A stretch of DNA of 32,335 nt. Source: Candidatus Mediterraneibacter norfolkensis. GTDB lineage: Bacteria > Bacillota > Clostridia > Lachnospirales > Lachnospiraceae. The notes under the pieces were generated by a model that ran no database searches, was not told the origin of the DNA, and worked only from the letters and a program-made list of their open reading frames with translations. Positions 110-31,018 of this stretch are shown piece after piece. Position numbers and translations under genes: made by a program. Position 1 is the stretch's first letter, and every line of letters begins with the position of its first letter. The stretch is taken from assembly GCA_019120615.1 (NCBI GenBank), contig DWUT01000145.1, positions 1 through 32,335 of the forward strand, in the 5' to 3' direction.

Positions 110-1111
110 CTATTCATTCCCGGTGTACAGCCTGTAAATTTCCGGAGCCACAACCTTCTGTATCTCTTCATACACCGGCTCACTCGTCCGGATCATCTCC
201 TCCCGCACAGAATCGTCCAGCGTGATGATCTCAGTCCCGCTGTCCCGGATAGTCTGGATCCTGTCATCGATCCTCTCATCGGACTGCTCTCTCGCATATT
301 CCTTTGCGATCTCCTCCGCTTTGATCAGGATCTGCTGGTCTTCCTCCGGAAGATCTTTAAAGAAATCCTCGCTCACCACAAGAGAGATAAGGTGAGGCAC
401 ATGATTCGTCTCAACGATATAGTCCTGCTGCTCATAGAGGCGGTTGGACACGATAACTTCATAAGGATTCTCCTGAGCGTCAATGGTATGCTGCTGAAGT
501 CCGATATAGACTTCGCTGAAGTTCATCGGCGTCGGATTTGCCCCCAGCTGCTGCCAGAAAGCGAGCTGATAGGCATCTTCCATGGTCCGGATCTTCTGTC
601 CTTCAAAGTCAGAGAACTCCCTGACAGCCTTGTTCGTGGACATGACGCGGAACCCCTGATCCGCATATCCCAGGAGTTCAAATCCAGATTCCCGGTAAGA
701 CTCCTGCATCTTTTCCAGGAATTCCGGCTGATCCACTGTCTCCCTGACCGACTCGATGTCACTGAAGATACAGGGCGCGTCGAACACTGCCGTATCGTCG
801 ATAAAACTGACCTGAGGCGCTGTGTTCTGGATCACAAACGGGATATCCCCGTCATAACAGCTCTCCAGAAGTTCCCGGTCTCCGCCAAGCACACTGTTCG
901 GGTAGACCATGATCTTGATCCTTCCTTCGCTGAGGCGGTCCACTTCCTCAACGAACTTTTCCGCATAGATCTGGGTCACTGTGTCCTCCGGGCTCGCCGT
1001 TCCCAGCGGATACGCGTACCGCTGCTCTCCGTCCTTCCCGGAGGCGCATCCCGCCAGAACTCCGGCCGCGGCAAGCACCACAGCAGCCGCAAAAATATTT
1101 TTCTTTCTCAT
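110..1111 (-). CDS. dctP: TRAP transporter substrate-binding lipoprotein (DctP family)
   Basis: Extracytoplasmic solute-binding subunit of a TRAP transporter, which captures an organic anion and delivers it to the DctQM membrane pair. The 333-aa product starts with a basic, hydrophobic signal and a lipobox LAGC (Cys22), so it should be a membrane-anchored lipoprotein. The ATG at 1111 is preferred over an in-frame upstream start because AAGGAGA lies just before it and the signal peptide begins there. The body shows the DctP features SPEDTVTQIYAEKFVEEV, the FRVMSTNK and GQKIRTM region around the ligand arginine, and ENPYEVI. It is last in the dctQ-dctM-dctP order, 28 bp after dctM. Sequence gives no direct ligand assignment; its position downstream of aroD/aroE-type genes suggests a cyclitol carboxylate, a cinnamate or a related acid (inference). 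No convincing terminator is visible in the 109 bp downstream. Confidence 0.93.
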   Translation of the reverse strand: MRKKNIFAAAVVLAAAGVLAGCASGKDGEQRYAYPLGTASPEDTVTQIYAEKFVEEVDRLSEGRIKIMVYPNSVLGGDRELLESCYDGDIPFVIQNTAPQVSFIDDTAVFDAPCIFSDIESVRETVDQPEFLEKMQESYRESGFELLGYADQGFRVMSTNKAVREFSDFEGQKIRTMEDAYQLAFWQQLGANPTPMNFSEVYIGLQQHTIDAQENPYEVIVSNRLYEQQDYIVETNHVPHLISLVVSEDFFKDLPEEDQQILIKAEEIAKEYAREQSDERIDDRIQTIRDSGTEIITLDDSVREEMIRTSEPVYEEIQKVVAPEIYRLYTGNE

Positions 1112-1139
1112 AACTGTCTCCTTCCGTTTAAACCCGCCG

Positions 1140-2429
1140 TTACAGCAGCGCCAGGCTGACCGCCGGAACAAATGTGATGATCAGAAGCGCCACAAGGAAA
1201 TACAGGATCATAGGCAACGCATGTTTTGCGATCTCCATAAGGGGCACCTCCGTAAGCGAACTTGCCACAAACAGGTTGACTCCGATAGGCGGAGTGACAA
1301 ACCCGATTGCAAGGTTCACCACCATCATCACACCGAAATGGATCGGATCCATCCCGATGGACTCCACGATCGGGAGAAGGATCGGTGTCAGTATAAGAAT
1401 CGCAGGCGTCGTATCCATGACCATTCCCACGATCAGCAGGAATCCATTGATAACAAGAAGAAGGATCACAGGATTCGTAAAGTGGGCCAGGATCCATGTG
1501 CTGATCGCCTGAGGAACCTGCATCAGAGTCAGCACTCTTGAAAATGCGATCGCCGCCGCAAGGATAAACAGGATCGGAGCATAAGTGCGTATGGACTCCA
1601 CAAGGATCGCCCAGATGTCCTTCACCTTAATCGTCTTATAGACCAGCATACTGATCAACAGTGCATAGAACACGGAAATAACCGCTGCCTCTGTCGGAGA
1701 AGCGATTCCTGTGTAGATGCAGCCAAGGATGATGACCGGGCTCAGAAGAGCGAACGCGCTGTCCTTCAATACACGGAACAGTCCCCTCTCATGGAGCGCG
1801 CCGACTACCACCATCTTCTTTTCCTGGTCTTCACCGTTTTTCTTGCAGTAGTAGAATGCATAAACCATCAGGAGCCCGCCGATCAGAAGTCCCGGGATGA
1901 TGCCGGCGATAAACAGGTCGCTGACGGAAGCCCCCGAAGCGGACCCGTACATGATGAACGGGATACTGGGCGGTATGATAACTCCCAGTCCTCCTGCCAC
2001 GGCTACCAGAGCAGTGGTAAATTTCTTATCGTACCCCATCTCGATCAGGATCGGGATGGTCATGCTTCCTACTGCCGCCACAGTCGCCGGTCCGGAACCG
2101 GAGATCGCTCCGTAAAACAGACAGGTCACGACCACGGCACAGGGCATGCCCGCCGTCCTCTTCCCCATGAAATAGGCAAACACATCAAACAGTTTTCTTG
2201 AGATTCCTCCCCGGGCCATGATGATCCCGGACAGTACGAACATGGGCACCGCAAGGAGCGGGAAACTGTCAAGTCCTCCCAGCATGGATCGTATCACATA
2301 GGTCGCGCTTGCCGTAAACGACGGATCTACCGCCCCGGGAAGCACAGAAACAATCCCAAGCGAGATGGAGACCGGGATCGCGATGACCAGGCACACGACA
2401 AAAATAATAAATAAAACAACAGCCGACAT
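1140..2429 (-). CDS. dctM: TRAP transporter large permease subunit (DctM family)
   Basis: Large membrane subunit of a TRAP transporter, the ion-coupled translocation channel. The 429-aa product has about 12 hydrophobic segments and family motifs such as GVIIPPSIPFIMYG, SPTEAAVISVFYALL and GMVMDTTPAILILTPILLP. Its length matches the family. The start at 2429 is chosen over the longer frame to 2489 because AAGGAGG precedes it and because the dctQ stop (2431-2433) lies one base upstream, giving tight translational coupling. The Pro-rich loops and the DTTPA segment are typical of DctM and are seen directly. It acts in the cytoplasmic membrane with DctQ and DctP, which flank it. Confidence 0.95.
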   Translation of the reverse strand: MSAVVLFIIFVVCLVIAIPVSISLGIVSVLPGAVDPSFTASATYVIRSMLGGLDSFPLLAVPMFVLSGIIMARGGISRKLFDVFAYFMGKRTAGMPCAVVVTCLFYGAISGSGPATVAAVGSMTIPILIEMGYDKKFTTALVAVAGGLGVIIPPSIPFIMYGSASGASVSDLFIAGIIPGLLIGGLLMVYAFYYCKKNGEDQEKKMVVVGALHERGLFRVLKDSAFALLSPVIILGCIYTGIASPTEAAVISVFYALLISMLVYKTIKVKDIWAILVESIRTYAPILFILAAAIAFSRVLTLMQVPQAISTWILAHFTNPVILLLVINGFLLIVGMVMDTTPAILILTPILLPIVESIGMDPIHFGVMMVVNLAIGFVTPPIGVNLFVASSLTEVPLMEIAKHALPMILYFLVALLIITFVPAVSLALL

Positions 2430-2430
2430 C

Positions 2431-2922
2431 TCACTCTCCTCCTTTCCGGCGCACTGAATTGAACTCCGCGATCCACCTCTGAAGTACACGGATCGCAGAA
2501 AGGATAAATCCTACCAGGGGCGCTGCCTGTACATAATACATCGGAATCCCCATAGCCGGACTTGTCTGCCCGTTTGCCACGGCGGACATCAGATATTTCC
2601 ACGCAAACGGAATCAGATAAAGGAACAGAATCAGTTCAAACGTGTGGTTTACCACCTTAAACATCGCCTTGCCCCGTTTCGGGAACAATGCGACAAACTG
2701 CTCAATCTTGATGGAAATACATTTCTTTGTACAATAGCTGACACTTAAAAATCCTGCCCAGATAAAAATATATCTGGTCAGCTCCTCGGACCAGGACAGG
2801 GAGGCGCCAAGCACATATCTGCAGAACACCTGCACTCCCATGATCAGAGCCATGGCTGCAAGTGCAGCCACCAGAAGTACCTCTTCCAGATACTCGTCTA
2901 TCCAGTTTATTGCTTTTTTCAT
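2431..2922 (-). CDS. dctQ: TRAP transporter small permease subunit (DctQ family)
   Basis: Small membrane subunit of a TRAP transporter, needed for assembly and function with DctM. The 163-aa product has four hydrophobic segments and the family signature around residues 27-60 (MGVQVFCRYVLG, WSEELTRYIFIW). The ATG at 2922 has a GGGAG site at suitable distance. It is the first of three TRAP genes and almost abuts dctM. A strong hairpin with a downstream T-run (2945-2971) separates it from the upstream GntP-family permease gene, so TRAP expression probably depends on readthrough or on a promoter inside that gene. Confidence 0.93.
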   Translation of the reverse strand: MKKAINWIDEYLEEVLLVAALAAMALIMGVQVFCRYVLGASLSWSEELTRYIFIWAGFLSVSYCTKKCISIKIEQFVALFPKRGKAMFKVVNHTFELILFLYLIPFAWKYLMSAVANGQTSPAMGIPMYYVQAAPLVGFILSAIRVLQRWIAEFNSVRRKGGE

Positions 2923-2944
2923 ATAGAATCTCCCAATAACAAAA

Positions 2945-2971
2945 GGGAGACGAAGCGGTGCATCGTCTCCC
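2945..2971 (-). terminator. Hairpin with T-run between GntP-family permease gene and dctQ
   Basis: A perfect 9-bp stem (GGGAGACGA with TCGTCTCCC) and a 9-nt loop. Read on the minus strand it is followed by TTTTGTT, as expected for an intrinsic terminator or attenuator. It sits inside an otherwise co-directional run, in only 66 bp between two genes, so partial termination is more likely than an operon end (inference). Confidence 0.7.
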
Positions 2972-2988
2972 TCTTCTGTGCTGAAAAC

Positions 2989-4293
2989 TTAATATAAGAT
3001 GATCGCTGCCACGACCGCGGCTGCCGATCCGATCATCGGCGCCAGCACGGATGTGACAAAGACATACCAGTAACTCTCCGCCAGGGAAAGGTTCATCCAG
3101 CGCAACTGCGCCACCATGCCGCCCGCATTGGGAAGAGTGTTCATCCCTGTCGCGCATGCCGGAGCAAGTCTGTGTAGCGCTCCCGGATCCGCCCCCTGGG
3201 CGATGAGTCCATCGGACAGATGCTCAAAAAACATGGCGATGGCGGAAGTTCCGCTTCCCATGATCCCCGCCAGGATATTCAGTCCGATAAACTCTGTGAT
3301 GTAAGCGTTCATGTTCAGACCCAGAACAAAATCGATCACTGCCTGGAAGCCCGGGCAGGACTGGAGCACACCGGAGAATCCAAGAATCGCAGCCGCCATG
3401 ATGGTAGCGCCGATCCCGTTATCCACACCTTTCCCGATGATCTTCTTCACACCGTCCAACTGTTTATGACAGGTCAGGACGATCACCGCAGAGCCGATGA
3501 ACAGGCTGAGAACGACCACTGCATTTGTATCCATCTCCGTAAAGTTGGAGAATATGAGCACCAGCACAACGGCCAGAACAAAGGGGATCAGAGCGATCCC
3601 GACCGATGGAAGATCATCCCTTGTGGGCTGGATCTTGATCGGTTTTGAATCGTCTACAACAGTTCCCTCTTTCACTGCGGCCTTCCTTGCCGCGTATACC
3701 ATGTAAAAATATCCTACCGCGATGGATACCGCGAACGCGATCCATCCAAGGATCGGCGCGGACCCCATAGAAGTCCCCAGATACTGTGCCGGCATGATAT
3801 TCGTGATATTGATCGCATAGGGAATCATAGCGGAGCAGGTTGCCCCAATAAATATGATTCCCGGGATCATCCGGTACGGATAACCTGCCTGCTTCATCAT
3901 GACCGTTGCAATCGGCGCCAGGACGAACAGCACCACAAATCCGGAAACGCCTACATATACGAACACGGTGCTGATTACGGTAATGGAGAGGATCACACGC
4001 TTCACTCCCAGCTTTTCCGTAATCACATTGGCAATCGCCTCCGCACATCCCGAGGATCCCATCAGTTCTCCGAACACGGCGCCGATCACCAGAACAAACA
4101 GGTTGCCCTGTATGAATCCCACATATCCTGATGCATAGGATGTCAGCGCATCCCACCACTGCATCCAGCTCGTAATGATGATGATGAATGACACCAGGAT
4201 CGTAGAAGTAAATACATCAAGCCCTTTCCAGATGACAACGATAAAGATCACCGCTGCCGCCAGAAGGCCCAACACTGATATTATAGTTTCCAT
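2989..4293 (-). CDS. GntP-family organic-anion permease
   Basis: Predicted cation-coupled permease for a sugar acid or similar small carboxylate. The 434-aa protein is nearly all hydrophobic, with about 12 segments, a length typical of GntP. Recognisable features are WKGLDVFTSTIL near the N-terminus, GAVFGELMGSSGCAEAIA, and the C-terminal GSGTSAIAMFFEHLS and CATGMNTLPNAGG loops, which resemble the GntP helix breaks. The ATG at 4293 follows GGAGAAGGCAGGA. It lies 21 bp after the alpha/beta hydrolase gene and 66 bp before dctQ. The substrate is not readable from sequence; context suggests quinate, shikimate or a related hydroxy acid. The related citrate and gluconate permease groups share this topology, so the family call is firmer than the substrate. 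Confidence 0.82.
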   Translation of the reverse strand: METIISVLGLLAAAVIFIVVIWKGLDVFTSTILVSFIIIITSWMQWWDALTSYASGYVGFIQGNLFVLVIGAVFGELMGSSGCAEAIANVITEKLGVKRVILSITVISTVFVYVGVSGFVVLFVLAPIATVMMKQAGYPYRMIPGIIFIGATCSAMIPYAINITNIMPAQYLGTSMGSAPILGWIAFAVSIAVGYFYMVYAARKAAVKEGTVVDDSKPIKIQPTRDDLPSVGIALIPFVLAVVLVLIFSNFTEMDTNAVVVLSLFIGSAVIVLTCHKQLDGVKKIIGKGVDNGIGATIMAAAILGFSGVLQSCPGFQAVIDFVLGLNMNAYITEFIGLNILAGIMGSGTSAIAMFFEHLSDGLIAQGADPGALHRLAPACATGMNTLPNAGGMVAQLRWMNLSLAESYWYVFVTSVLAPMIGSAAAVVAAIILY

Positions 4294-4314
4294 TCCTGCC
4301 TTCTCCGTCTCTTT

Positions 4315-5295
4315 CTATTCTTCCCCGACGATGCAGATCTCACGGAATTCTTTCCTGTAAGGGTTCTTTCCGTCATAGAAGACTTTGTCGATAAAATCGA
4401 TGCATCTTCTTATGTTGTCATCTGCCTTGATCCTCTGCGATCCGTGAGGCTCCCCCTCGAAGAGTTCGAGCTGCACCCGGTCTTCCCCGCATACCACCTT
4501 CACCTTTTCATACATATAGATGGACTGATGATGGTCGATGATCAGGTCATCTGTCCCGTGCTCCAGGAGCATGGGCGGGCAGTCTTCCGTCACTTGGCAG
4601 ATCGGACTGACCTTGCAGGTCCGTTCCGGATACTGGATCGGGTTGTAGCCCAGGAGCATGGTAAACAGTGAGGAAGTTCCCACACCGTCACCTGGCATCA
4701 TTCCCTTGCCCGCGCCTGTCCGGGTACGGATGTCCTCGATATCCACACCGAACTGTTCCGCCGAGCAGAGTTCGCTGATGGTGTACCATGCCAGAGCACA
4801 CTGCACCTTTGAGGACGCCTTCAGTCCGACGGAAAGGTCATCATATTCCTCCCTGTCCCCGGTCACTGCCAGAAGCTGGGTGACTGTCCCGCCTGCGGAG
4901 TTGCCCCACACCGCGAAACGTTCGGGATCCAGGTTCAGTTTTTCCGCATTAGCACGCAGATATCTTATCGCCGCTTTCCCGTCGATCAGCTGTGCCGGCC
5001 ACAGAGCCTCCTGCACCAGACGGTACTCCACCGTAGCCACCGCATATCCCTGTGTGACAGGCTGGCACATTGATTTGATGTAATGGCTACGTTTATGTCC
5101 CATGGCAAATGCTCCGCCGTGGAATACAATGACCAGCGGGAACGGCCCTTCCCCCTCGTCCGGATACATGATATCCAGGATCTGGTTTTCTGACTGGTCT
5201 GCATACTTAAGATCCAGTTCCACATGTCTGAACTGTGACATATCCATTTCCGGCTCAGATGCCAGAAACTGTTCTCTGTTGTTAAAACCTGCCAT
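4315..5295 (-). CDS. Alpha/beta hydrolase, feruloyl-esterase-like (BD-FAE / Abhydrolase_3 type)
   Basis: Serine ester hydrolase of 326 aa. The oxyanion-hole motif HGG (59-61) is followed by the nucleophile elbow GNSAG with Ser133. The likely acid is Asp250 in HGTDD and the base is His284 in EPHGS. There is no signal peptide, so it should be cytoplasmic. Start at 5295 follows AAAGGAGG. It lies 23 bp after aroD and 21 bp before the GntP-type permease, so it is probably in their operon. In this family the HGGAF...GNSAGG pattern is common in acyl and feruloyl esterases. With aroD and a quinate dehydrogenase-like gene alongside, a hydroxycinnamoyl-quinate or -shikimate ester is an attractive substrate (inference). 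Acetyl- or lactone-type substrates remain possible. Confidence 0.87.
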   Translation of the reverse strand: MAGFNNREQFLASEPEMDMSQFRHVELDLKYADQSENQILDIMYPDEGEGPFPLVIVFHGGAFAMGHKRSHYIKSMCQPVTQGYAVATVEYRLVQEALWPAQLIDGKAAIRYLRANAEKLNLDPERFAVWGNSAGGTVTQLLAVTGDREEYDDLSVGLKASSKVQCALAWYTISELCSAEQFGVDIEDIRTRTGAGKGMMPGDGVGTSSLFTMLLGYNPIQYPERTCKVSPICQVTEDCPPMLLEHGTDDLIIDHHQSIYMYEKVKVVCGEDRVQLELFEGEPHGSQRIKADDNIRRCIDFIDKVFYDGKNPYRKEFREICIVGEE

Positions 5296-5318
5296 TATAA
5301 GCCTCCTTTCGGGTCATA

Positions 5319-6080
5319 TCAGAGACTCTTGTGAAGGAGTCCCAGGACTGTCTGAAGATCCTCCGCTCCCATCTGCCCCGGTGCGGAAGCCTTTCCTACT
5401 GCTCCGAATGTCAGCGCGGAGCCGAACACCTCTCCGCACAGGCGGCTGATCACGCCGGTTCCAGACATGGACATGGTAATGATCGGGCGGTCCGCATACT
5501 CTGTCGCCATCTCCTCTGTCGCGCACAGAAGTGTCAGGACATCCTTCTTGCTCTGCGGCATTACCGCGATCTTCGGGATATCCGCTCCCAGATCCTGCAT
5601 CTTGCGGAGTCGGGATACGATCTCATCCTTTTCCGGAGTCTTGTGGAAATCATGGTTGGAAGCAACTACTTTCACACCGCACTCATGAGCTGTCTCAACA
5701 ACAGCTTTTACTGCATCGTCCCCTGTGAAAGCCTCGATATCGACCAGATCGATCAGACCTGTCTTTGCCGCTTTCTGGTTCAGCTCAACATATGCGTCTG
5801 TCTCGATCGCTTTCTCTCCGCCTTCTTTGGATGTACGGAATGTAAACAGGATCGGCGTATCTCCAAGCACATCTCTGAGCGCTTTCATCGTCTCCTCTGT
5901 TTTTCCGAAGTCAAAGATATCTTCGTACCAGTCCACACGCCACTCGACCACGTCTGCAGCTGTCGTCTTTATCGTCTCCGCCGCTTTAAGGATCTCTTCT
6001 CTTGTAACTCCCACGATGGGAACACAGATCTTCGGAATACCTGTTCCGATCTCTACATTTCTTACTTTTACCGGATTCAT
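5319..6080 (-). CDS. aroD: 3-dehydroquinate dehydratase, type I
   Basis: Interconverts 3-dehydroquinate and 3-dehydroshikimate through a Schiff-base lysine. The 253-aa product matches the normal type I length. His143 (SNHDFHKTP) and Lys170 (PKIAVMPQ) fall at the same numbers as the catalytic pair of the well-studied enterobacterial enzymes. Arg213, Ser232 and Gln236 (ISRL, GKASAPGQ) match substrate-binding residues. ATG at 6080 is preferred over the frame start at 6131 because AGGAGGA precedes it and the fold begins there. It is surrounded by an MFS permease and an esterase and is near a quinate/shikimate dehydrogenase, with no aroA, aroB, aroC or aroK. A catabolic role (quinate breakdown) is therefore more likely than aromatic biosynthesis. 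Confidence 0.95.
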   Translation of the reverse strand: MNPVKVRNVEIGTGIPKICVPIVGVTREEILKAAETIKTTAADVVEWRVDWYEDIFDFGKTEETMKALRDVLGDTPILFTFRTSKEGGEKAIETDAYVELNQKAAKTGLIDLVDIEAFTGDDAVKAVVETAHECGVKVVASNHDFHKTPEKDEIVSRLRKMQDLGADIPKIAVMPQSKKDVLTLLCATEEMATEYADRPIITMSMSGTGVISRLCGEVFGSALTFGAVGKASAPGQMGAEDLQTVLGLLHKSL

Positions 6081-6178
6081 TCTTATTCTTCCTCCTGTCA
6101 GTGAATTTGATACTTTTACGCTGCAGTTCACACTGTACTCAAAGACAGCTGTAAACCGCGCCCTTTTTAACCACAGGA

Positions 6179-6227
6179 AGGCAGCGTCACGGAACGGCGT
6201 TTTCCGCGCCGCTCCGGCCTGCTGCCT
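6179..6227 (-). other. GC-rich hairpin between MFS gene and aroD
   Basis: The outer stem AGGCAGC/GCTGCCT (6179-6185 with 6221-6227) encloses a second GC-rich stem (6191-6199 with the CGCCGCTCC arm). It lies in the 164-bp gap between the MFS gene and aroD. No clear T-run follows on the minus strand, so it may be a weak terminator, an mRNA-processing or stabilising structure, or a leader element. The gap also leaves room for an internal promoter, but none is convincing. Confidence 0.5.
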
Positions 6228-6244
6228 CTTTTCAGTTCTGTTTA

Positions 6245-7432
6245 TTATTTGGATGTGTCTGCGTTTTTCAGCAGGACTCCATATCTTGCGTTGACGAACA
6301 GCGCAAGAAGGATACCGATGACAGTGATCACGATATTCATGATTATAACACCGGATGCAGTCATATTGGAAGCCGCTGTCAGGATCGTGTAGTTACAGAG
6401 ACTGGATGCGATCATAACGAGGCTGGTAAGTGTACCTTTGATCTTCGGGAACAGGTCATTCGCAACGGCTGTCGCCATCTGAAGGACACCGCCTGCTCCT
6501 GCGTAACCGATCACAAATGCTCCAACATAGCAGATCATCGGGCTCTTGATCATGTAAACGAGGGCCAGCATCACCAGTGAGATCACCGGGTAAATCACAA
6601 GGAAACGGACCTGTTTGAACTTTGTGATCAGGGCGCTTGTGACGAACAGAGCCACCAGAGTACCTGCTGAATAGTATGTCTGCATCATGGAAACATCCTC
6701 AGATGCGATGCCTGCAACTTCTGTACCGAATGTCTGCGCACAGTTCAGCCAGAGCTGGAATGTTGCGGTACATGTGAATCCGATCAGGATCAGAGCAACA
6801 CTCTCTACTGAGAAGTGAGCGCTCTTTAAGTTGCTCAGGAAGGACTCGCCTTTTCCCACGCCTTCAACCTTCGGAAGCGGAGCAAAGATAGCAAGTACAC
6901 CCAGTACTGCGATCACGATACCGCATACCAGAGGAAGCATCAGGTAAGACATAGATGTTCCGACACAGAGACCGAGGAAGAACGGAAGGAGCAGCTGTGC
7001 AACAGAGATGAACAGCTTGATTCCCATCGTTGCGATACCTGTATATTTGTAGATGATCTCTGCAACTGCCGGATATGTAGCTGTGTCAAGGAAGGAGTTC
7101 GCGATACCTCCGAGAACTGCCGCCACATATGCGATCGTCATATTCGGTGAGAATGCAATCCCCACGAAGAAGATCACGTAGGAGAAGCATCCGATCAGAA
7201 CGGAAATCCTTCTTCCGAACTTGTCAGACAGCGGGCCGGCAAACGGAAGAGAGATCAGACGCCCCAGTCCCAGCGCTGCAGCCACTGCGGTAACACCCAT
7301 TACATCACTCATGCCCCATTGCTCTGCCAGAAGTTCTTTTACAACCTGCTGACTTAAGATGGAGCATCCAATACCATGGATAAAATAATTTAAATAAAGG
7401 ATCAGTGCACTTGGTGCGTATTTTTTATTCAT
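6245..7432 (-). CDS. MFS transporter, candidate quinate/shikimate permease
   Basis: Major facilitator superfamily permease of 395 aa with about 12 membrane segments. The conserved cytoplasmic loop between helices 2 and 3 is visible as GPLSDKFGRRISV (around residues 66-78), the classical MFS motif A. Start at 7432 gives a short cytoplasmic N-terminus before the first helix. It lies directly between the shikimate/quinate dehydrogenase gene (37 bp) and aroD (164 bp), so uptake of quinate, shikimate or a related acid is the natural inference; sequence alone does not prove this. It is one of three transporter families in the same leftward run, the others being GntP and TRAP. Confidence 0.9.
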   Translation of the reverse strand: MNKKYAPSALILYLNYFIHGIGCSILSQQVVKELLAEQWGMSDVMGVTAVAAALGLGRLISLPFAGPLSDKFGRRISVLIGCFSYVIFFVGIAFSPNMTIAYVAAVLGGIANSFLDTATYPAVAEIIYKYTGIATMGIKLFISVAQLLLPFFLGLCVGTSMSYLMLPLVCGIVIAVLGVLAIFAPLPKVEGVGKGESFLSNLKSAHFSVESVALILIGFTCTATFQLWLNCAQTFGTEVAGIASEDVSMMQTYYSAGTLVALFVTSALITKFKQVRFLVIYPVISLVMLALVYMIKSPMICYVGAFVIGYAGAGGVLQMATAVANDLFPKIKGTLTSLVMIASSLCNYTILTAASNMTASGVIIMNIVITVIGILLALFVNARYGVLLKNADTSK

Positions 7433-7469
7433 GATTCTTTTTTCCCTCTCTTTTCTCTCTGTTTATCTT

Positions 7470-8348
7470 TTAGTCATATTTGATGTCGAGAACTTCTTTC
7501 ATGTGATCGATCGGCATGTGTTTGCCCGTCCACAGATAGAACGCCGCGTCGCCCTGGAAGAGCATCATTCCGAGACCGTTCATCGTCTTGCGGCATCCTG
7601 CCTCTTTGGCCATCTTAAGAAGAGCTGTCTCTCTTGGAGAATAGATCGTATCTGTCACGATCAGGTCCGGGCGGAAGAAAGATTTGTCCGGAACAACTGA
7701 CTGTCCCTCAAGGGGTTTCATGCCGACACCTGTTGCCTGTGCAAATAGGTAGCTGTCTGCGATCTCTTCTCTTAACTTCTCTTTGTCATCCAGGTCATAC
7801 AGATTTACAATACAGTCTGTATTATTGCGGATCGTCTCCACTGTCTTCTCCGCTGCTTCCCAGAATTTATCTTTGATATTAAAGATGGAGATCTCTTTCA
7901 CTCCGTCCAGAGCCGCCTGAACCTCGATTGCCTTTGCAGCGCCGCCGGCACCTGTGATCGTCATCTTCTTTCCGATCACATCAATGTCATTGTCCTTCAA
8001 GGACTGCATGTAACCGATCCCGTCTGTGATATGTCCGATCAGCTTCCCGTTGTCGTTCACAATGGTATTGACCGCACCGCACATCTGAGCTGCCGGTGAC
8101 AATTCATCCAGGTACTGTCCCACAACCGTCTTATTCGGCATGGAAACGTTTGATCCTACCATTTTCAAAGCCCGAAGCCCTTTCACAGCATCCTCAAGTG
8201 TGCTGTTGTCTACCTCGAACGCAAGGTAAGCATAGTCCAGTCCCAGTGTTGCGAACGCCTCGTTGTGCATTGCCGGTGAACTTGAATGTCTGATCGGGTA
8301 AGCCATCAGGCCGATCAGTTCTGTGTGTCCTGTGATTCTCTCTGCCAT
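7470..8348 (-). CDS. Quinate/shikimate dehydrogenase (YdiB-like, AroE superfamily)
   Basis: NAD(P)-dependent oxidoreductase interconverting 3-dehydroshikimate and shikimate and, in the YdiB branch, 3-dehydroquinate and quinate. The 292-aa protein has the substrate serines in HSSSPAMHN (21-29), catalytic Lys73 (PNKT), Asn94 (AVNT), catalytic Asp109 (ITDG) and the dinucleotide loop GAGGAA (133-138). After the second Rossmann strand the sequence is FNIKD rather than the NRT motif of strictly NADP-dependent AroE. This resembles YdiB, whose catalytic Lys71 and Asp107 are nearly at the same positions. The usual NTDG is HITDG here. The start follows AAGGAG. It is the first gene of the leftward run and is divergent from a LysR gene, a layout typical of an inducible catabolic operon. 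Confidence 0.93.
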   Translation of the reverse strand: MAERITGHTELIGLMAYPIRHSSSPAMHNEAFATLGLDYAYLAFEVDNSTLEDAVKGLRALKMVGSNVSMPNKTVVGQYLDELSPAAQMCGAVNTIVNDNGKLIGHITDGIGYMQSLKDNDIDVIGKKMTITGAGGAAKAIEVQAALDGVKEISIFNIKDKFWEAAEKTVETIRNNTDCIVNLYDLDDKEKLREEIADSYLFAQATGVGMKPLEGQSVVPDKSFFRPDLIVTDTIYSPRETALLKMAKEAGCRKTMNGLGMMLFQGDAAFYLWTGKHMPIDHMKEVLDIKYD

Positions 8349-8410
8349 GATTTTTCTCCTTTTTGATTACTATTCCTGTTTGTTAAATATCAAACAACCT
8401 CTCTGGTTTA

Positions 8411-8440
8411 ATTATACGCAATTACATATTATAGTTCCAA
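8411..8440 (-). promoter_or_regulatory. Predicted sigma-70-type promoter of the dehydrogenase/aroD run
   Basis: On the minus strand, TTGGAA (8435-8440) is separated by 18 bp from a consensus TATAAT (8411-8416). The transcript would have a leader of about 55 nt before the ATG at 8348. The LysR-type dyad at 8460-8478 sits 20 bp upstream of this -35, the usual activator position. Confidence 0.6.
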
Positions 8441-8449
8441 TATATCTTT

Positions 8450-8479
8450 TTGACATTTTTGATAGCTTAAAACTATCAT
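8450..8479 (+). promoter_or_regulatory. Predicted promoter of the first LysR gene
   Basis: Consensus TTGACA (8450-8455), 18-bp spacer, TATCAT (8474-8479). A second TATAAT lies at 8486-8491 and is an alternative -10. The LysR dyad overlaps the spacer and -10, which would fit negative autoregulation. Confidence 0.5.
8460..8478. promoter_or_regulatory. LysR-type operator (dyad with 6-bp half-sites)
   Basis: TGATAG-N7-CTATCA is a perfect inverted repeat and satisfies the T-N11-A rule for LysR-type binding sites (ATAG-N7-CTAT). It lies between two divergent genes, just upstream of the predicted dehydrogenase promoter and overlapping the regulator's own promoter. Confidence 0.65.
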
Positions 8480-8524
8480 TTGTAGTATAATACCACAAAA
8501 GATATTTTTTAAAGGAGCAGTACC

Positions 8525-9400
8525 ATGACACTGAATCAGCTTACTTACTTTCAGACCGTTGCGCGCTGCCAGCATTACCGTCTGGCCGCCTCAGAACTCA
8601 ACATCTCCCAGCCGTCCTTAAGCCGTTCTATCTCCAACCTCGAGGATGAACTGGGAATTATTCTGTTCGAAAGAAAAGGGCGCACGGTCACGCTCACAAA
8701 ATACGGGAAGCTTTTCCTTGAGCACACCGACCGCATCCTGTCCGAGGTAAATCTTGCTGAAAAACATATGAAGAAGCTCTCAGGCAAATCTGGACATGTT
8801 GACATTGCCTATGTTTTTCCTTTGGCTGCCAGATATATCCCCCACACAGTCCGCCGGTTTCTTGCCAGCAGCAATAACGAAAAGATCAGCTTCAGTTTCC
8901 GACAGACCTACACCGCAGAAATGGTTGCAGGTTTGAAATCTGAGCAGTATGACGTTATCTTTGGATCCTATGTGGAAAATGAACCGGATATCCAGTTTGT
9001 CCCGATCATGGACCAGGAAATGATCATCATCACCCCTCTCGGTCACCCTCTTGCCCGTAAAAGCGCGCCTGTTCTGAAGGATCTGGAACGTTATCCGCTG
9101 ATCGGATATGACAGGACCTCCGGTTTGGGGCGCTTCACCAGACGTACTTATGCCGCCTATTCAATCGTTCCAAACATCGTCTGTGAATCACCGGATGAAA
9201 ACGCCATCGCATCTCTTGTGGCCGAGGATTTTGGTATCGCGCTGGTAGCGGATGTGGATATCCTGGAACATTTTTCTCTCGAAAAACTCCACTTGAGCGA
9301 CGTCAGCCTGCGGCACACCGTCTACATGGGATACCTGAAGGATCATTATCAGATCCCGGCGGTCAGGAATTTCATTTCTTTTATAAAAAAAGGTTCTTGA
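8525..9400 (+). CDS. LysR-type transcriptional regulator, divergent from quinate/shikimate dehydrogenase
   Basis: DNA-binding regulator of 291 aa. The N-terminal winged helix-turn-helix (about 1-60) has LNQLTYFQTVARCQHYRLAA and ISQPSLSRSISNLEDELG, followed by an effector-binding domain of periplasmic-binding-protein fold. ATG at 8525 follows AAAGGAG. It is divergent from the dehydrogenase-led operon and shares a 176-bp intergenic region containing a T-N11-A dyad, so it probably activates that operon in response to a pathway intermediate. Its 3' end overlaps the next LysR gene, on the opposite strand, by 20 bp. The two proteins look like paralogues, sharing for example the segment VTLTKYGK. 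Confidence 0.93.
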   Translation: MTLNQLTYFQTVARCQHYRLAASELNISQPSLSRSISNLEDELGIILFERKGRTVTLTKYGKLFLEHTDRILSEVNLAEKHMKKLSGKSGHVDIAYVFPLAARYIPHTVRRFLASSNNEKISFSFRQTYTAEMVAGLKSEQYDVIFGSYVENEPDIQFVPIMDQEMIIITPLGHPLARKSAPVLKDLERYPLIGYDRTSGLGRFTRRTYAAYSIVPNIVCESPDENAIASLVAEDFGIALVADVDILEHFSLEKLHLSDVSLRHTVYMGYLKDHYQIPAVRNFISFIKKGS

Positions 9401-10262
9401 CATATTCCGCGAAGCGCTGCACCAAGGGCGGCTGAAAGGCGTCCCTGGATCTTGCCATATATACATACCTCTTCTCATGCTGATTGCGAAGCGGGATGAT
9501 GTCCACACTGAGCTGCCGTAAGACCGGAATCTCGGGCATCACGGCAATTCCGAAATTCTGTGCTACAAGCCCCGCCATGCAGCCGTCTTCCTCGATCTCA
9601 TAGGCGATCTCCGGCTTCACCCTGATCTGCTCAAACATCCGGTCTACGACCGGCCGAAGACCGCTGTTGGGCGTATAGAAGATCTGGGGGTAGACCGCTG
9701 CCTGCTCCAGATCCACAGCCTTTTCATACGACAGAGGATGCCCCTTTGGGACCACGACCACCAGATTCTCTGTTCCCACGGGCGTAAACTGAATCCCGCT
9801 CTCTCTTTCCGCCATGGAGCAGAACCCAATGTCATACTTCTCTTCCTTAAGTCCTTTTATGATCTCTGAAGTGTTGCCCACAGTAAAATGAAATTTTACT
9901 CTCAATTCCTCATGAGTTCGGATAAAATCACTCACCAGCGACGGAACAAACTCGCTTCCAAGCGTATAGATATACCCCAGTTCGATCAGCCCCTCCGTCT
10001 GTCCTGTCAGAGACCTCACTTTTTTTACTCCTGCATCAAGTGTTTTCATGGATTCATCCACATATTCCCGGAAAATTTTTCCATATTTTGTCAGCGTCAC
10101 ATTTCTGCCCTGCTTCTCAAACAGCTTTGTCCCCAGTTCCGTCTCCAGGGCACTGACCGCATGGCTGAGAGTCGGCTGGGAAATATCAAGCTCCTCCGCA
10201 GCCTTTGTATAATGTTCTACTTCCGCAAGCTTTGAAAAATAATGCAGCTGGTTCAGGTTCAT
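9381..10262 (-). CDS. LysR-type transcriptional regulator, divergent from OYE-type reductase
   Basis: Regulator of 293 aa with the LysR helix-turn-helix at the N-terminus (LNQLHYFSKLAEVEHYTKAA, ISQPTLSHAVSALETELG) and a C-terminal ligand-binding domain (residues about 90-290). ATG at 10262 is chosen over the frame start at 10322 because AGAGGTG precedes it and the HTH begins at once. It is divergent from the large flavin reductase (10473), which it most likely controls. It converges on, and overlaps by 20 bp, the other LysR gene. The N-terminal third is strongly similar to that neighbour, suggesting a local duplication. Confidence 0.92.
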   Translation of the reverse strand: MNLNQLHYFSKLAEVEHYTKAAEELDISQPTLSHAVSALETELGTKLFEKQGRNVTLTKYGKIFREYVDESMKTLDAGVKKVRSLTGQTEGLIELGYIYTLGSEFVPSLVSDFIRTHEELRVKFHFTVGNTSEIIKGLKEEKYDIGFCSMAERESGIQFTPVGTENLVVVVPKGHPLSYEKAVDLEQAAVYPQIFYTPNSGLRPVVDRMFEQIRVKPEIAYEIEEDGCMAGLVAQNFGIAVMPEIPVLRQLSVDIIPLRNQHEKRYVYMARSRDAFQPPLVQRFAEYVKNLFL

Positions 10263-10317
10263 AAAATCACCTCTTTGTATAAAATAGCACAAATCATTAA
10301 AATTTTCTATAATTCTA

Positions 10318-10346
10318 TTCAAAAATATGCATTTGTTTTATATAAT
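10318..10346 (+). promoter_or_regulatory. Predicted promoter of the OYE-type reductase gene
   Basis: TTCAAA (10318-10323), 17-bp spacer, TATAAT (10341-10346). Another TATAAT follows at 10356-10361. The 210-bp divergent region is very AT-rich and would leave a leader of about 120 nt before the start codon. Confidence 0.5.
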
Positions 10347-10472
10347 GGTTTCTTTTATAATACAGCTTGTAAACGGATTGTTAAGCAAAAGACAATACGC
10401 CCGTTTTTCAACAACCTCTCTATTTCATTATTTATTAACTATAACCGATATTATTTTCAGGAGATTAGGATT

Positions 10473-12479
10473 ATGAAGAAAGAGTACAGACATATTTTTG
10501 AACCTTTCACCGTTCGCCGCATGACGCTGAAGAACAGGATCATGATGACTCCCATGGGGACAAACTACGGCGAGCAGAGCGGAGAGATGAGTTTCCTCCA
10601 TATTAATTACTACGAGCAGCGCGCAAAAGGCGGCACAGGCCTGATCATGGTGGAGAATGCCAGCGTCGACTCTCCGGAGGGTTCCAACGGAACAACACAG
10701 CTCCGCATCGACCACGACAACTACATTCCCCGTCTTTTCAAACTGACGGAAACGATCCACAAACACGGGACCTGCATCGGGATCCAGCTAAATCATGCGG
10801 GAGCATCCGCTCAGTCTGCGCGTACGAACATGCAGCCGGTATCTGCCTCCAACATCCCTTCCAAAGAGGGCGGAGATATCCCTCGTCCACTGGAGAAAGA
10901 CGAGATCCTTCGCATTGTAAAGAAATACGGAGAGGCTGCAAAGCGCGCCCAGACAGCTGGGTTCGACTGTGTGGAGATCCATGCCGGACACTCCTACCTT
11001 CTCAGCCAGTTTCTCTCGCCTCTGACAAACAAGAGAACAGATGAGTTTGGTGGTTCCGCAGAAAACAGAGCACGTTTCGCCCGCCTCGTGATGGAAGAAG
11101 TAAGAAGTCAGGTCGGGCCGTTCTTCCCCATCTTCCTCCGTATCAGCGCCGACGAATTCCTTGAGGGCGGAAATACGCTGGACGACTGCCTTGACTATCT
11201 GCAGTATATTGAAAAAGAGGCCGACGTCATCGACGTATCCTGCGGACTGAACGCCTCCATCCAGTACCAGATCGATTCCAACCATTTCCCGGACGGATGG
11301 CGTTCCTATATGGCAAAAGCCGTAAAAGAGAAATATAACAAGCCCTGCGTCACTATGGGAAATATCCGTGATCCTCATGTCGCAGAGGATATCCTTGCCA
11401 GAGGAGACGCTGATCTGATCGGGATCGGACGTGGTCTGATCGCAGATCCGGAGTGGGTCAACAAAGTAGAGTTCGGGGACGTCTGTGACATCAGGAAATG
11501 TATCTCCTGTAATATCGGATGCGCCGGAAACCGTATCGGCATCAACCGCCCGATCCGCTGCACCATCAACCCTGCGGTCGCAGAGGGCGAGGATTACAAG
11601 AAACACCCGATCACCAAACCGTGCAACGTAGTTGTAGTAGGAGGCGGTACTGCCGGAATGGAAGCTGCCTGTACAGCCGCCGAAGTGGGGTGCACAACCT
11701 TCCTGATCGAGAAGAAGCCTTATCTGGGAGGACTTGCAGCAGAGATCTCCAAGATACCGGATAAGAAAAGGCTCTCCGACTTCCCGAATTACATGATCCA
11801 CCGCACGAACAAACTGAGAAATCTCTTTGCATTTACGGATATGGAAGCAGATGTAAACTTCATCAAAAGCCTGAAGCCAAACATCATCGTAAACGCAACC
11901 GGTTCTTCACCGCTGCTTCCGCCGATCGCAGGACTCCATGAGAACCTCGGAAAAGAAGGAAGCAAAGTATACAGCATCCTTGATATGATCGAACACGTCA
12001 ATAACAATGACTATCCGGAAGACATGTCCGGAAAGAAAGTAGTCGTTATCGGCGGCGGCGCGGTAGGTCTTGACGTCGTAGAATACTTTGCTCCGAGAGG
12101 CGCAGATGTAAGCATCGTAGAGATGATGCCGATTATCGGAAACGGCATCGATCCGGTATCCAAAGTTGACATCAACACGCTGATGAACAAATACAACGTA
12201 AAACAGATGCCGAACACGGCACTCAAAGAAGTCCGTCCTGATAACTTCCTTGTGGAGGCAGACGGCGAGCAGAAAGAACTTCCTTTCGATTACGGATTCG
12301 TATGTCTGGGAATGAAGGCCGAACATCCGGTGCTCCAGCAGATCAGAGAGGCGTTCGAGGACGATGACTCCATCGAAATCCTCAACATCGGTGACAGCGT
12401 TCGCGCAAGAAGAATCATCGACGGAACAGAAGAAGGAAGAAATATCCTCAATACACTGGAGAAACGTGGATATCTTTAA
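10473..12479 (+). CDS. Old-yellow-enzyme-type Fe-S flavoenzyme (enoate / 2,4-dienoyl-CoA reductase family)
   Basis: Multidomain NAD(P)H-dependent reductase of 668 aa that reduces electron-poor C=C bonds. An N-terminal FMN TIM barrel (about 1-335) includes FEPFTVRRMTLKNRIMMTPM, the active-site stretch VEIHAGHSYLLSQFLSP and NKRTDEFGGS. Four cysteines follow (343, 346, 350, 363; CX2CX3CX12C) for a 4Fe-4S cluster. Then come two Rossmann motifs: VVVVGGGTAGMEAA (FAD) and KVVVIGGGAVGLDVVEYF (NAD(P)). ATG at 10473 with an upstream AGGAG is preferred; the frame open to 10242 is AT-rich non-coding leader. Length and order match FadH, BaiCD/BaiH and enoate reductases. The substrate is unknown. Given the neighbours, 3-dehydroshikimate (an enone) or a hydroxycinnamate are candidates (inference). 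Confidence 0.9.
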   Translation: MKKEYRHIFEPFTVRRMTLKNRIMMTPMGTNYGEQSGEMSFLHINYYEQRAKGGTGLIMVENASVDSPEGSNGTTQLRIDHDNYIPRLFKLTETIHKHGTCIGIQLNHAGASAQSARTNMQPVSASNIPSKEGGDIPRPLEKDEILRIVKKYGEAAKRAQTAGFDCVEIHAGHSYLLSQFLSPLTNKRTDEFGGSAENRARFARLVMEEVRSQVGPFFPIFLRISADEFLEGGNTLDDCLDYLQYIEKEADVIDVSCGLNASIQYQIDSNHFPDGWRSYMAKAVKEKYNKPCVTMGNIRDPHVAEDILARGDADLIGIGRGLIADPEWVNKVEFGDVCDIRKCISCNIGCAGNRIGINRPIRCTINPAVAEGEDYKKHPITKPCNVVVVGGGTAGMEAACTAAEVGCTTFLIEKKPYLGGLAAEISKIPDKKRLSDFPNYMIHRTNKLRNLFAFTDMEADVNFIKSLKPNIIVNATGSSPLLPPIAGLHENLGKEGSKVYSILDMIEHVNNNDYPEDMSGKKVVVIGGGAVGLDVVEYFAPRGADVSIVEMMPIIGNGIDPVSKVDINTLMNKYNVKQMPNTALKEVRPDNFLVEADGEQKELPFDYGFVCLGMKAEHPVLQQIREAFEDDDSIEILNIGDSVRARRIIDGTEEGRNILNTLEKRGYL

Positions 12480-12848: not shown

Positions 12849-15200
12849 TTACAATTCGTTGATGGTTTCTGTGATCGCCATACTGCGTATCCGTCTGGAT
12901 GGGGCCCGGGCTGCCAGGAGCGCGGTGAAAAGGTTGAATGCGGCGATAATGCAGAGCAGCGGTACGGGCAGGCTCCACTCCGTGCCGAAATATTTCGTGA
13001 TCAGCATGATGTGCAGGTACCTGCTCAGTGCCAGTCCTGCCGCGCATCCAACCACAAGTCCGGAGACGGCATAGACAAGGGCTTCTGCAATGATCATGCG
13101 GGTGAGCTGTCCGCCGTCCATACCGACCGCCCGCATGGCGCCGTACTGCCGGATCCGTGCCGTCACGCTCATCGAAATGCTGTTGATCATATTAAACAGC
13201 GTGATCATGGCGATGATCGCCAGAAAGCTGTACAGCACGAACTGGGCGGCAAAGTAAGTTGCCCTGTCCTCCTGATTCCCATTGCGCAGATCAGAAAAGA
13301 TGATATCGCTGCCTGCCAGGTCATTGATCTGACGGATTGTTTCATCCGTCGCACTACTGTCTAATTTGATCCCGATCAGACTGTAAGCCGTTTCGCCCGT
13401 AAGCCATTCAAATGTTTCCTCGGAACAGATCACGCTGTATTCACTGGGGAACACGCCGGAAGAAACCGCACAGGTGATCGTCACTTCCTTATCCCCGATC
13501 CGAATCCTGTCCCCAACCTGCAACGGGTTGTCTTTATTGCGGATCGTCATGACACTTCCTGTATTTCCATAGACTTCTGAAAGGTTCCCTTCCGCAACGC
13601 TGTCTTCTGCGCTGTCCAGCAGATAATCTGTATAGGAGGTCAGATTGACATGGTCGATCTCCTCTCCTGCATCTGATTTTATATCGAGGGAAGCCGCCGG
13701 GACATTTTCCATGTATGCCGTTCCGTAGGCTGTCTCCACATGCGGGATCTGACGGATCTCATCCAGAAGGCTCTGTTCCAGCACAAGTGCATTGGCATAT
13801 CCGTTCAGTGTGATATCCGGCTGCCAGGACCGAAAGGACGGGATCAGCTCATGGGCAAAATCAAGTCCCACTGAAAAACAGAGGAACAGAATAATGCTCA
13901 GTGAAAAACTGGCAGTCATCAGAAACCAGTTCTTTTTAGAGGCTGTTGCATGATGCACTCCTAAGGTCCAGTCAACTTTCCCCAACAGCATCTTCGACGT
14001 ATGATTCACTTTCGGGACCGTCCCGCTGCTTCCGGAAGCCGCCGCCATCGGGGAGACCTTTGCCGCGCGTTTTGCCGGAGCCTGAGCCGCCAGCAGAACC
14101 GTCATAAGTCCCACCACTGTGCCGCTGACCAGACCGATCGGGCTGAGGGCGAATACGGGAGTGGACGCAAATTCACCGCCGATGCCGTAACGCAGCAGCG
14201 CGCAGACCGCCCAGGTGATGACCGTACCTGCGATCAGACCGACCGGGATCGCTGTTTTGCACCAGTTCAGCGCCTCCAGCCTTACGAAACGGATCACCTG
14301 CTGCCGGCTCGCGCCGATACAGCGCATCATGCCGAAGAATTTTGTCCGCTGGGCGACATTGCTGTTCATGCCTCCGGAGATCATCAGCACCCCGGCCAGC
14401 AGCACCAGGACGAACAGGACCGCCGCGATCCCATAGAAATTTTTCACGGATTCACTGCTGCTCTGACCGGCAAGCCCCATAACTGCTGTGTTTTCACTGA
14501 TGCTTTCTTCCGGCAGATCATACTGCTCCCGGATTTCCGGGATCGCATCCGATGCTTTTGCCGCGCTCTGGAACTGTACATAACAGACCGGGGCGGTGTC
14601 TGAAACGCCGTTTTTATCCATAAGCGACGCAAAGGCAGATTCTGTCATATAGACGGCGACCAGATAGGTCTGACCCTCATAATACTCCTGATCATCTGAT
14701 CCGAAGCCGGATACCGTCAGTTCCACGTCGCCTGCCGGCGTCCGGACTGTCACAGGATCTCCGATCTGCACATCCAGCGCAAGCTTCGCGTTTGAACTGA
14801 GTACCACTTCTCTGTCATTTTGGGGGAAATCTCCCTCTTCCATGCCGTCTGCAAGCTGAGACAGATAGGTTTCGTCTGTGCCGTACAGAGTGGCTTTTCT
14901 GTCGCCAATATACCAGGGCTGGTCCGCATCGAAATTGAACACGGATGACCGGCCGCATGCCGTGACGTCCGGGCGGCTGCCGATCTCTCCGGCAATCTCT
15001 TCCGAAATGTTTTCTATCCGGATATGCCAGCTCCCGTGCTTCTCCATCATTGCAGCACTCTCTCCCCGGATCGTCATGTCCGCGGCGCTGAAAATCGTTG
15101 TCACCAGCAGAACAGATACCATAATACAGAGGATCATCATCCGATTCTGGCGTTTCCGCACCTTTGCCGAGATCGGGATCAGACTCAGATAACTTCTCAT
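12849..15200 (-). CDS. ABC transporter permease, FtsX/MacB family, two FtsX modules
   Basis: Membrane subunit of 783 aa of an ABC exporter or mechanotransmission complex. It has an N-terminal membrane segment (about 20-40) and a large extracellular domain. A first FtsX block has about three helices, with ARRTKF-like and GASRQQV segments around residues 285-400. A second anchor, extracellular domain and C-terminal FtsX block end in SMAITETINEL. ATG at 15200 is chosen because it overlaps the ATPase stop (ATGA) and follows GGGAGGTG; an upstream ATG at 15209 is less favoured. With the adjoining two-component system it resembles peptide-antibiotic or cell-envelope-stress resistance modules. The substrate cannot be read. 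Confidence 0.9.
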   Translation of the reverse strand: MRSYLSLIPISAKVRKRQNRMMILCIMVSVLLVTTIFSAADMTIRGESAAMMEKHGSWHIRIENISEEIAGEIGSRPDVTACGRSSVFNFDADQPWYIGDRKATLYGTDETYLSQLADGMEEGDFPQNDREVVLSSNAKLALDVQIGDPVTVRTPAGDVELTVSGFGSDDQEYYEGQTYLVAVYMTESAFASLMDKNGVSDTAPVCYVQFQSAAKASDAIPEIREQYDLPEESISENTAVMGLAGQSSSESVKNFYGIAAVLFVLVLLAGVLMISGGMNSNVAQRTKFFGMMRCIGASRQQVIRFVRLEALNWCKTAIPVGLIAGTVITWAVCALLRYGIGGEFASTPVFALSPIGLVSGTVVGLMTVLLAAQAPAKRAAKVSPMAAASGSSGTVPKVNHTSKMLLGKVDWTLGVHHATASKKNWFLMTASFSLSIILFLCFSVGLDFAHELIPSFRSWQPDITLNGYANALVLEQSLLDEIRQIPHVETAYGTAYMENVPAASLDIKSDAGEEIDHVNLTSYTDYLLDSAEDSVAEGNLSEVYGNTGSVMTIRNKDNPLQVGDRIRIGDKEVTITCAVSSGVFPSEYSVICSEETFEWLTGETAYSLIGIKLDSSATDETIRQINDLAGSDIIFSDLRNGNQEDRATYFAAQFVLYSFLAIIAMITLFNMINSISMSVTARIRQYGAMRAVGMDGGQLTRMIIAEALVYAVSGLVVGCAAGLALSRYLHIMLITKYFGTEWSLPVPLLCIIAAFNLFTALLAARAPSRRIRSMAITETINEL

Positions 15201-15880: not shown

Positions 15881-15953
15881 TTCGTATAACACCTCTTTCT
15901 GTTTTTGTATAGAAAGAGTAACACGTCAACCCTACTGTATTATGACAGAAATC

Positions 15954-16991: not shown

Positions 16992-16999
16992 AACATACC

Positions 17000-29911: not shown

Positions 29912-29936
29912 AAATCATTCTCCCTGCTTTTTAATT

Positions 29937-30950: not shown

Positions 30951-31018
30951 AAGAACACCTCGCTTCATCAATTTAAATCTTACTTTTTCATCCTACTCCT
31001 TCCATCTCGTCTTTCCAA

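Follow-up and report, generated by a model that had tools for sequence, protein, structure and literature searches.

Introduction

In Listeria monocytogenes, the qui1 locus comprises the regulator QuiR (lmo0488), an NADH oxidase of the OYE type (lmo0489, 664 residues), a shikimate dehydrogenase (SDH; lmo0490), and the type I 3-dehydroquinate dehydratase (dehydroquinase) AroD (lmo0491), genes that, judging from their locus numbers, presumably lie in this order. Portions of two papers describe structure 5TED as Listeria QuiR bound to shikimate, the passage of PMC10269891 that deals with the OYE homolog lmo0489 gives it no known substrate, and AroD acts in biosynthesis there too: A Tn-seq table of PMC11970672 places lmo0491 together with aroA, aroB, and further biosynthetic genes. 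In Escherichia coli K-12, ydiN (an MFS permease), the quinate/shikimate dehydrogenase gene ydiB, and aroD stand in a row, without QuiR, TRAP, or OYE genes, and the ydiF-fadK genes come after them. Here, we describe a qui1-like locus on contig DWUT01000145.1 of Candidatus Mediterraneibacter norfolkensis, analyzed within a stretch of 32,335 nucleotides (hereafter, the window) from a Mediterraneibacter-like genome of the Lachnospiraceae (3.58 Mb, 94.4% complete).

We find that an SDH and a type I dehydroquinase adjoin an OYE-type flavoenzyme in the window, which is the arrangement by which we recognize a qui1-type locus, and that the likeness extends to the QuiR-like LysR regulators and to the size of the flavoenzyme (667 residues). 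As in E. coli, an MFS permease, a quinate/shikimate-type dehydrogenase, and the cell's aroD follow one another. Compared with qui1, the window has two LysR genes and additionally encodes a TRAP transporter as well as an optional esterase-GntP pair, whereas no 3-dehydroshikimate dehydratase turned up in the window scans. We accordingly classify the locus as a variant of qui1 with the same regulator, OYE, SDH, and AroD, to which the TRAP transporter and the optional esterase-permease pair are added, and whose AroD is almost surely shared between import and biosynthesis. A preliminary description, made from the DNA letters, had named these genes, and profile scans located all of them close to where it had placed them (Table 1); its remark that no other aro biosynthesis gene is present likewise held among the scanned window proteins. 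Within the open-license PMC literature, we recognized no paper describing this gut locus.

Table 1. Features of the qui1-like locus, in window coordinates.
Feature	Position	Strand	Evidence
TRAP solute-binding protein DctP, lipoprotein-like start	110-1111 (corrected likely start 1111)	-	PF03480, TIGR00787 over cut-off
TRAP large permease DctM	1140-2489	-	PF06808, TIGR00786 over cut-off
TRAP small permease DctQ	2431-2922	-	PF04290
Terminator-like hairpin ahead of TRAP genes	2945-2971	-	fold of 2930-2990: -25.8 kcal/mol, z -4.4
GntP-family permease, 434 residues, optional cassette gene	2989-4293	-	PF02447 45 bits, cut-off 22.5
BD-FAE-family alpha/beta-hydrolase (esterase), 326 residues, optional cassette gene	4315-5295	-	PF20434 159 bits
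AroD, type I 3-dehydroquinate dehydratase, ~253 residues	5319-6080	-	TIGR01093 265 bits, cut-off 139
Stable hairpin between MFS and AroD	6150-6228	-	fold of 6150-6245: -38.5 kcal/mol, z -2.8, 2/200 shuffles as stable
MFS permease, 395 residues	6245-7432	-	Pfam MFS_1
SDH, shikimate (quinate/shikimate) dehydrogenase, 292 residues	7470-8348	-	NCBIfam PRK00258.2-1 519 bits, cut-off 431
Operator-like dyad ATAG-N7-CTAT between SDH and LysR1	8462-8476		perfect match
LysR1, QuiR-like regulator	8525-9400	+	best solved match Lmo0488/QuiR 5ted
LysR2, QuiR-like regulator	9381-10262 (corrected start 10262)	-	best solved match 5ted
OYE/BaiCD-like (2,4-dienoyl-CoA-reductase-type) flavoenzyme, 667 residues	10476-12479 (corrected likely start 10476; open reading frame 10242-12479)	+	PF00724 and pyridine nucleotide domains

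A conserved core accompanies SDH

To place the locus among its relatives, we mapped the window genes onto the 80 loci closest by SDH, which share ancestry and therefore do not amount to a random sample. The window SDH is 95-100% identical to its counterparts in Mediterraneibacter, Merdimonas, and gut bacteria related to them; in the 80th-nearest locus, identity is still at least 75%. Among the 53 loci that were long enough for the comparison (at least 6 kb to the left and at least 6.5 kb to the right of SDH), AroD occurred in 51, MFS in 48, a LysR gene in 48, the OYE in 47, and TRAP DctM in 42, while OYE, LysR, AroD, and TRAP all accompanied SDH in 37. The core of OYE-type reductase, LysR, SDH, MFS, AroD, and TRAP is conserved, and the grouping of these genes lies far beyond chance. 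A comparison of gene order in relatives, as had been proposed in the preliminary description, thus bears out this core, whereas the esterase and GntP genes proved to be optional. By record titles, the carriers belong to Mediterraneibacter, Merdimonas, Anaerostipes, Coprococcus, Pseudobutyrivibrio, and Clostridium. A megabase-scale similarity search of the SDH DNA against E. coli genomes gave no match.

The nearest solved relatives of the SDH are 3tnl/3toz (E 1.9e-120), with YdiB-type enzymes next. Lys73 in NVSMPNK and Asp109 in GHITDG sit at the usual catalytic positions, and we take these two residues to be the catalytic ones. The solved relatives of DctP are general and sialate-type DctP proteins.

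QuiR-like regulators and an operator-like dyad

Both LysR proteins found their best solved match in Lmo0488/QuiR (5ted), LysR1 at E 3.9e-36 and LysR2 at E 3.5e-45, with BenM next at 9.9e-20 and 5.1e-25, respectively, such that the E-values of 5ted lie 16 to 20 orders of magnitude below those of the runner-up. Between SDH and LysR1, the window holds a perfect ATAG-N7-CTAT dyad, located 121 bases from the SDH start, just upstream of the SDH promoter-like site and within that of LysR1. A perfect dyad of this kind recurs in 34 of 80 stretches upstream of SDH (78 from the main locus set and 2 fetched later), compared with 0.4-0.8 in base-shuffled stretches, and also ahead of the OYE gene, in 31 of 71 loci versus 0.55 after shuffling. 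Ahead of the other genes it is rare (AroD, 2/89; MFS, 0/65; DctQ, 0/59). Since the loci with dyads are relatives of one another and the window OYE lacks one, the sharing of the dyad between the two genes applies to the relatives and, in the window, to SDH and not to the OYE.

Taken together, the QuiR-like regulators and the dyad support a putative shikimate-responsive locus for uptake and interconversion of the Listeria qui1 kind. The substrate class that the preliminary description had named, quinate and shikimate, imported under LysR control, finds backing in the same regulators and dyads (before SDH and OYE in relatives), in the relatives of the SDH, and in the conserved TRAP and MFS transporters. 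Two stable hairpins (Table 1) divide the presumed operon; the one between MFS and AroD may uncouple expression of these two genes, and aroD is possibly expressed apart from SDH. Scans with Rfam and for tRNAs gave no matches in the window.

No dehydroquinase besides AroD was found in the genome

The AroD gene had been called catabolic-looking, a label that did not survive a count of dehydroquinases. In the window's own genome, a type I dehydroquinase occurs at a single place, which is the window AroD; a search of the genome for a type II dehydroquinase (AroQ) returned none, and AroB is present. Across 23 carrier genomes (that of the window and those of the loci from named isolates), AroB and AroD were present in all 23 and AroQ in none, with exactly one AroD over cut-off in 20; two matches were found in G003, G014, and G020, of which the second match in G003 holds an inner stop. 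A wider survey of 120 Lachnospiraceae genomes yielded AroD in 68, AroQ in 50, both in 1 (G082), and neither in 3, where independent scattering would predict both in ~28. Hence, the two enzymes are mutually exclusive in the family. Because AroD is the sole dehydroquinase found in a genome that has AroB, carriers lack AroQ, and the two types exclude each other in the family, AroD almost surely serves biosynthesis as well, to judge from these gene contents. We therefore rejected a purely catabolic AroD, given that no second dehydroquinase was found in the genome and given the exclusion across the 120 genomes. More generally, the dehydroquinases of a genome need to be counted before an AroD that stands beside transporters and a LysR gene is termed catabolic.

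The surroundings of AroD vary within the family. Close relatives of the OYE occurred in 10 of the 120 genomes, 9 of which have AroD, at no more than 5 kb from the OYE in seven. Of the 59 AroD genomes without a close OYE, we fetched the AroD context in 20 (some on short contigs) and found a chorismate mutase-shikimate kinase gene or an SDH within ~2.5 kb of AroD in 11. On an AroD tree, a fork with support of only 82/85 had on one side every one of the 64 OYE-linked rows, along with 21 of the 38 others, and E. coli was unplaced; the OYE-link label requires 17 changes on this tree, and we therefore claim no single origin. The AroD open reading frame extends to a GTG at 6131, but we place the start at the ATG at 6080, which is preceded by a ribosome-site-like GGAGG.

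In a rival explanation, the locus would serve salvage only: Imported quinate and shikimate would spare the first chorismate steps, and the OYE would be unrelated or would detoxify enones. Beyond the sole AroD, it can draw on the SDH being the only SDH-domain match in 3 of the 23 carriers (Merdimonas faecis L012, Petralouisia muris L029, and Lachnospiraceae 3-1 L033), on a chorismate mutase-shikimate kinase fusion gene inside the locus of 24 of the 80 relatives (25 by tblastn), and on a quinate-to-chorismate route that a portion of PMC10054779 proposes for a rumen bacterium. However, salvage alone has no need of the OYE, and its presence in 47 of the 53 loci together with a dyad common to SDH and OYE is much for an unrelated enzyme. 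We thus regard a locus for salvage only as rather unlikely, albeit worth serious consideration.

An optional esterase-GntP cassette

The esterase has a GNSAG serine motif, candidate Asp and His residues, and no evident signal peptide; Ser133 and His284 are invariant, as is Asp250 in six aligned rows. The adjacent GntP-family permease scores below cut-off on all NCBIfam GntP models. We found the esterase in 7 of the 53 long-enough loci and in 8 of all 80 (of these eight, two reach just 38-40% identity and another is truncated), GntP in 5 of the 53 and 5 of the 80, and the two together in 5 of the 80. Locus L005, whose aroD region shares 98.9% identity with that of the window, runs directly into the TRAP leader and lacks 2.3 kb (window ~3004-5325); L006 and L010 likewise lack the cassette, and L017 has no GntP and retains just 168 of the 326 esterase residues. 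The two genes form an optional 2.3-kb cassette, and we rejected the esterase as a core member, given how rare the cassette is among the loci and how cleanly it is missing from the near-identical L005.

The preliminary description had proposed that a chlorogenate-type ester is imported and cut by this esterase, that its hydroxycinnamate half goes to the OYE for reduction, and that SDH and AroD take the quinate, which is the other half of chlorogenate. The five loci that hold the whole cassette, the retained catalytic residues, and a related BD-FAE esterase (38-40%) that stands with a further MFS gene at the end of the qui-like clusters of C. ljungdahlii and C. ragsdalei, a possible second recruitment, would all fit this proposal. 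It nonetheless fared worst among the claims made there, and we consider ester catabolism improbable as the function of the locus. The cassette is absent from most loci, including near-identical ones, and truncated in L017, and the reductase is independent of it, as most of the 47 loci with OYE have no esterase. When 397 family genomes were searched, just 4 had a relative of the esterase at E 1e-50 or better. In one of these, G402, an esterase (70%) and a GntP gene (69%) are adjacent behind a LysR gene, and the 13.6 kb fetched contain neither SDH nor AroD. The predicted structure of the esterase (mean pLDDT 71) came nearest, with identities of 24-25%, to acetyl/carbohydrate esterases of the gut and to a lipase from the rumen, and none of the 50 best structure matches listed was named a cinnamoyl or feruloyl esterase. 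For the cassette itself, an ester substrate is possible, and an ester of quinate or shikimate would be no more than a fair guess from its gene neighbors.

The OYE-type flavoenzyme

The flavoenzyme consists of an FMN barrel, a 4Fe-4S site, and an FAD/NAD domain, which is the domain order of BaiCD and 2,4-dienoyl-CoA reductase. Its motif H169-x-x-H172-x-Y174 is well kept among 62 aligned rows (H169 in 59, H172 and Y174 in all 62), the 4Fe-4S cysteines 342/345/349/362 are conserved, and a conserved stretch of its own at 263-278 (QYQID..PDGWRSY) differs from that of the second OYE of clostridial clusters. The closest NCBIfam model is that of BaiCD, a desaturating enzyme, but the score of 476 bits lies far below the cut-off of 825, and we rejected an assignment as BaiCD bile acid enzyme as weak. 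The HxxHxY pattern of OYEs binds an enone at its carbonyl oxygen and donates a proton, and 3-dehydroshikimate is an enone. As the Listeria counterpart has no known substrate, the reaction is inferred: The OYE most likely reduces 3-dehydroshikimate.

Seven of the 80 loci (L045, L046, L048, L065, L070, L073, and L077, from C. ljungdahlii, C. ragsdalei, C. magnum, C. thailandense, Terrisporobacter, and two others) carry a further module in which a TIM barrel is joined by another OYE and, mostly, by another SDH and MFS. In profile scans, the barrel hit Pfam AP_endonuc_2 and gave a weak match to QuiC (27.6 bits, cut-off 1200); this second module appears to resemble the Listeria qui2 set. An aromatizing route, in which the OYE would desaturate 3-dehydroshikimate toward gallate/pyrogallol or protocatechuate, could invoke BaiCD as the closest model and the conversion of quinate by gut communities into pyrogallol (in a portion of PMC11602726) and hippurate precursors (likewise in PMC9560768), but we deem it highly improbable, given the low BaiCD score, the larger profit that a fermenter would draw from reduction, and the lack of a 3-dehydroshikimate dehydratase or QuiC-like barrel in the window protein scans (the rest of this genome was not searched), with that weak QuiC-like barrel confined to the seven loci.

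Neighboring genes

Beyond the OYE, positions 12849-17698 encode an FtsX-type permease, an ABC ATPase, a histidine kinase, and a response regulator, which adjoin the core in L003 and L005 only. Such exporter genes thus occur in 2 of the 53 long-enough loci and are outside the unit. A Liv-type solute-binding protein (window 17811-18986) lies on one side and a LivH-like permease (L003:18494-19384) on the other side, on the same strand, an arrangement seen in six relatives (L003, L005, L006, L007, L010, and L017), and the qui-like locus looks inserted within a liv operon. At 19655-20941, a single open reading frame joins a D-lyxose isomerase (residues 1-222) to a Uma2 nuclease-like domain (258-396); because relatives match just one half each (L006 and L007 the isomerase part, L010 and L017 the Uma2 part), we take this to be a local fusion or join. 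At 27860-30971, adjoining a sugar ABC transporter, a protein of 683 residues with a weak rhamnosidase match is accompanied by an AraC regulator and by another esterase, the second in the window.

Discussion

On balance, we think that the locus is probably a shikimate-responsive node for uptake and interconversion of plant hydroaromatic acids, of qui1 build, whose dehydroquinase is also needed for chorismate. In such a node, the TRAP and MFS permeases would bring in quinate and shikimate, and SDH would interconvert quinate with 3-dehydroquinate and shikimate with 3-dehydroshikimate. AroD would interconvert 3-dehydroquinate and 3-dehydroshikimate, imported and self-made alike, and thereby feed chorismate. 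The QuiR-type LysR proteins would sense shikimate and activate the SDH operon, as well as the OYE gene of relatives, via the ATAG-N7-CTAT sites, while the OYE, using NADH, would reduce the ring double bond of surplus 3-dehydroshikimate and so provide an electron sink in a fermenter. Where present, the esterase-GntP pair could free the acids from an ester.

Several observations weigh against this picture. The SDH scores 338 bits on the model of YdiB, the quinate/shikimate type, under its cut-off of 349. Perfect SDH dyads occur in just 8 of 24 sequence groups (formed at 88% SDH identity), the promoter region of the window's own OYE has no dyad even at one mismatch, and dyads with at most one mismatch are not enriched across the whole window (14 found, 10.1 expected). 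Close OYE and AroD genes lie >130 kb apart in two of the nine family genomes that have both (G109 and G092). Last, with a genome completeness of 94%, the assembly could lack a second dehydroquinase that the organism has.

The findings bear on what gut bacteria do with quinate. Portions of PMC11602726 and PMC9560768 report that gut communities convert dietary quinate into shikimate-like compounds, pyrogallol, and hippurate precursors, and one of these two reviews lists the enzyme for quinate aromatization as not available. The locus supplies concrete candidate genes in culturable genera and a candidate reaction for the conversion of quinate in the gut. We tentatively suggest, as an idea that we would not yet bet on, that many gut and rumen Lachnospiraceae may have their sole dehydroquinase wired into a shikimate-sensing uptake operon, with quinate and shikimate serving both as aromatic precursors and, via reduction of 3-dehydroshikimate by the OYE, as electron acceptors. 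If true, the qui pathway would here take an anaerobic, reductive form and would provide an enzyme route to the reduced quinate products of the gut.

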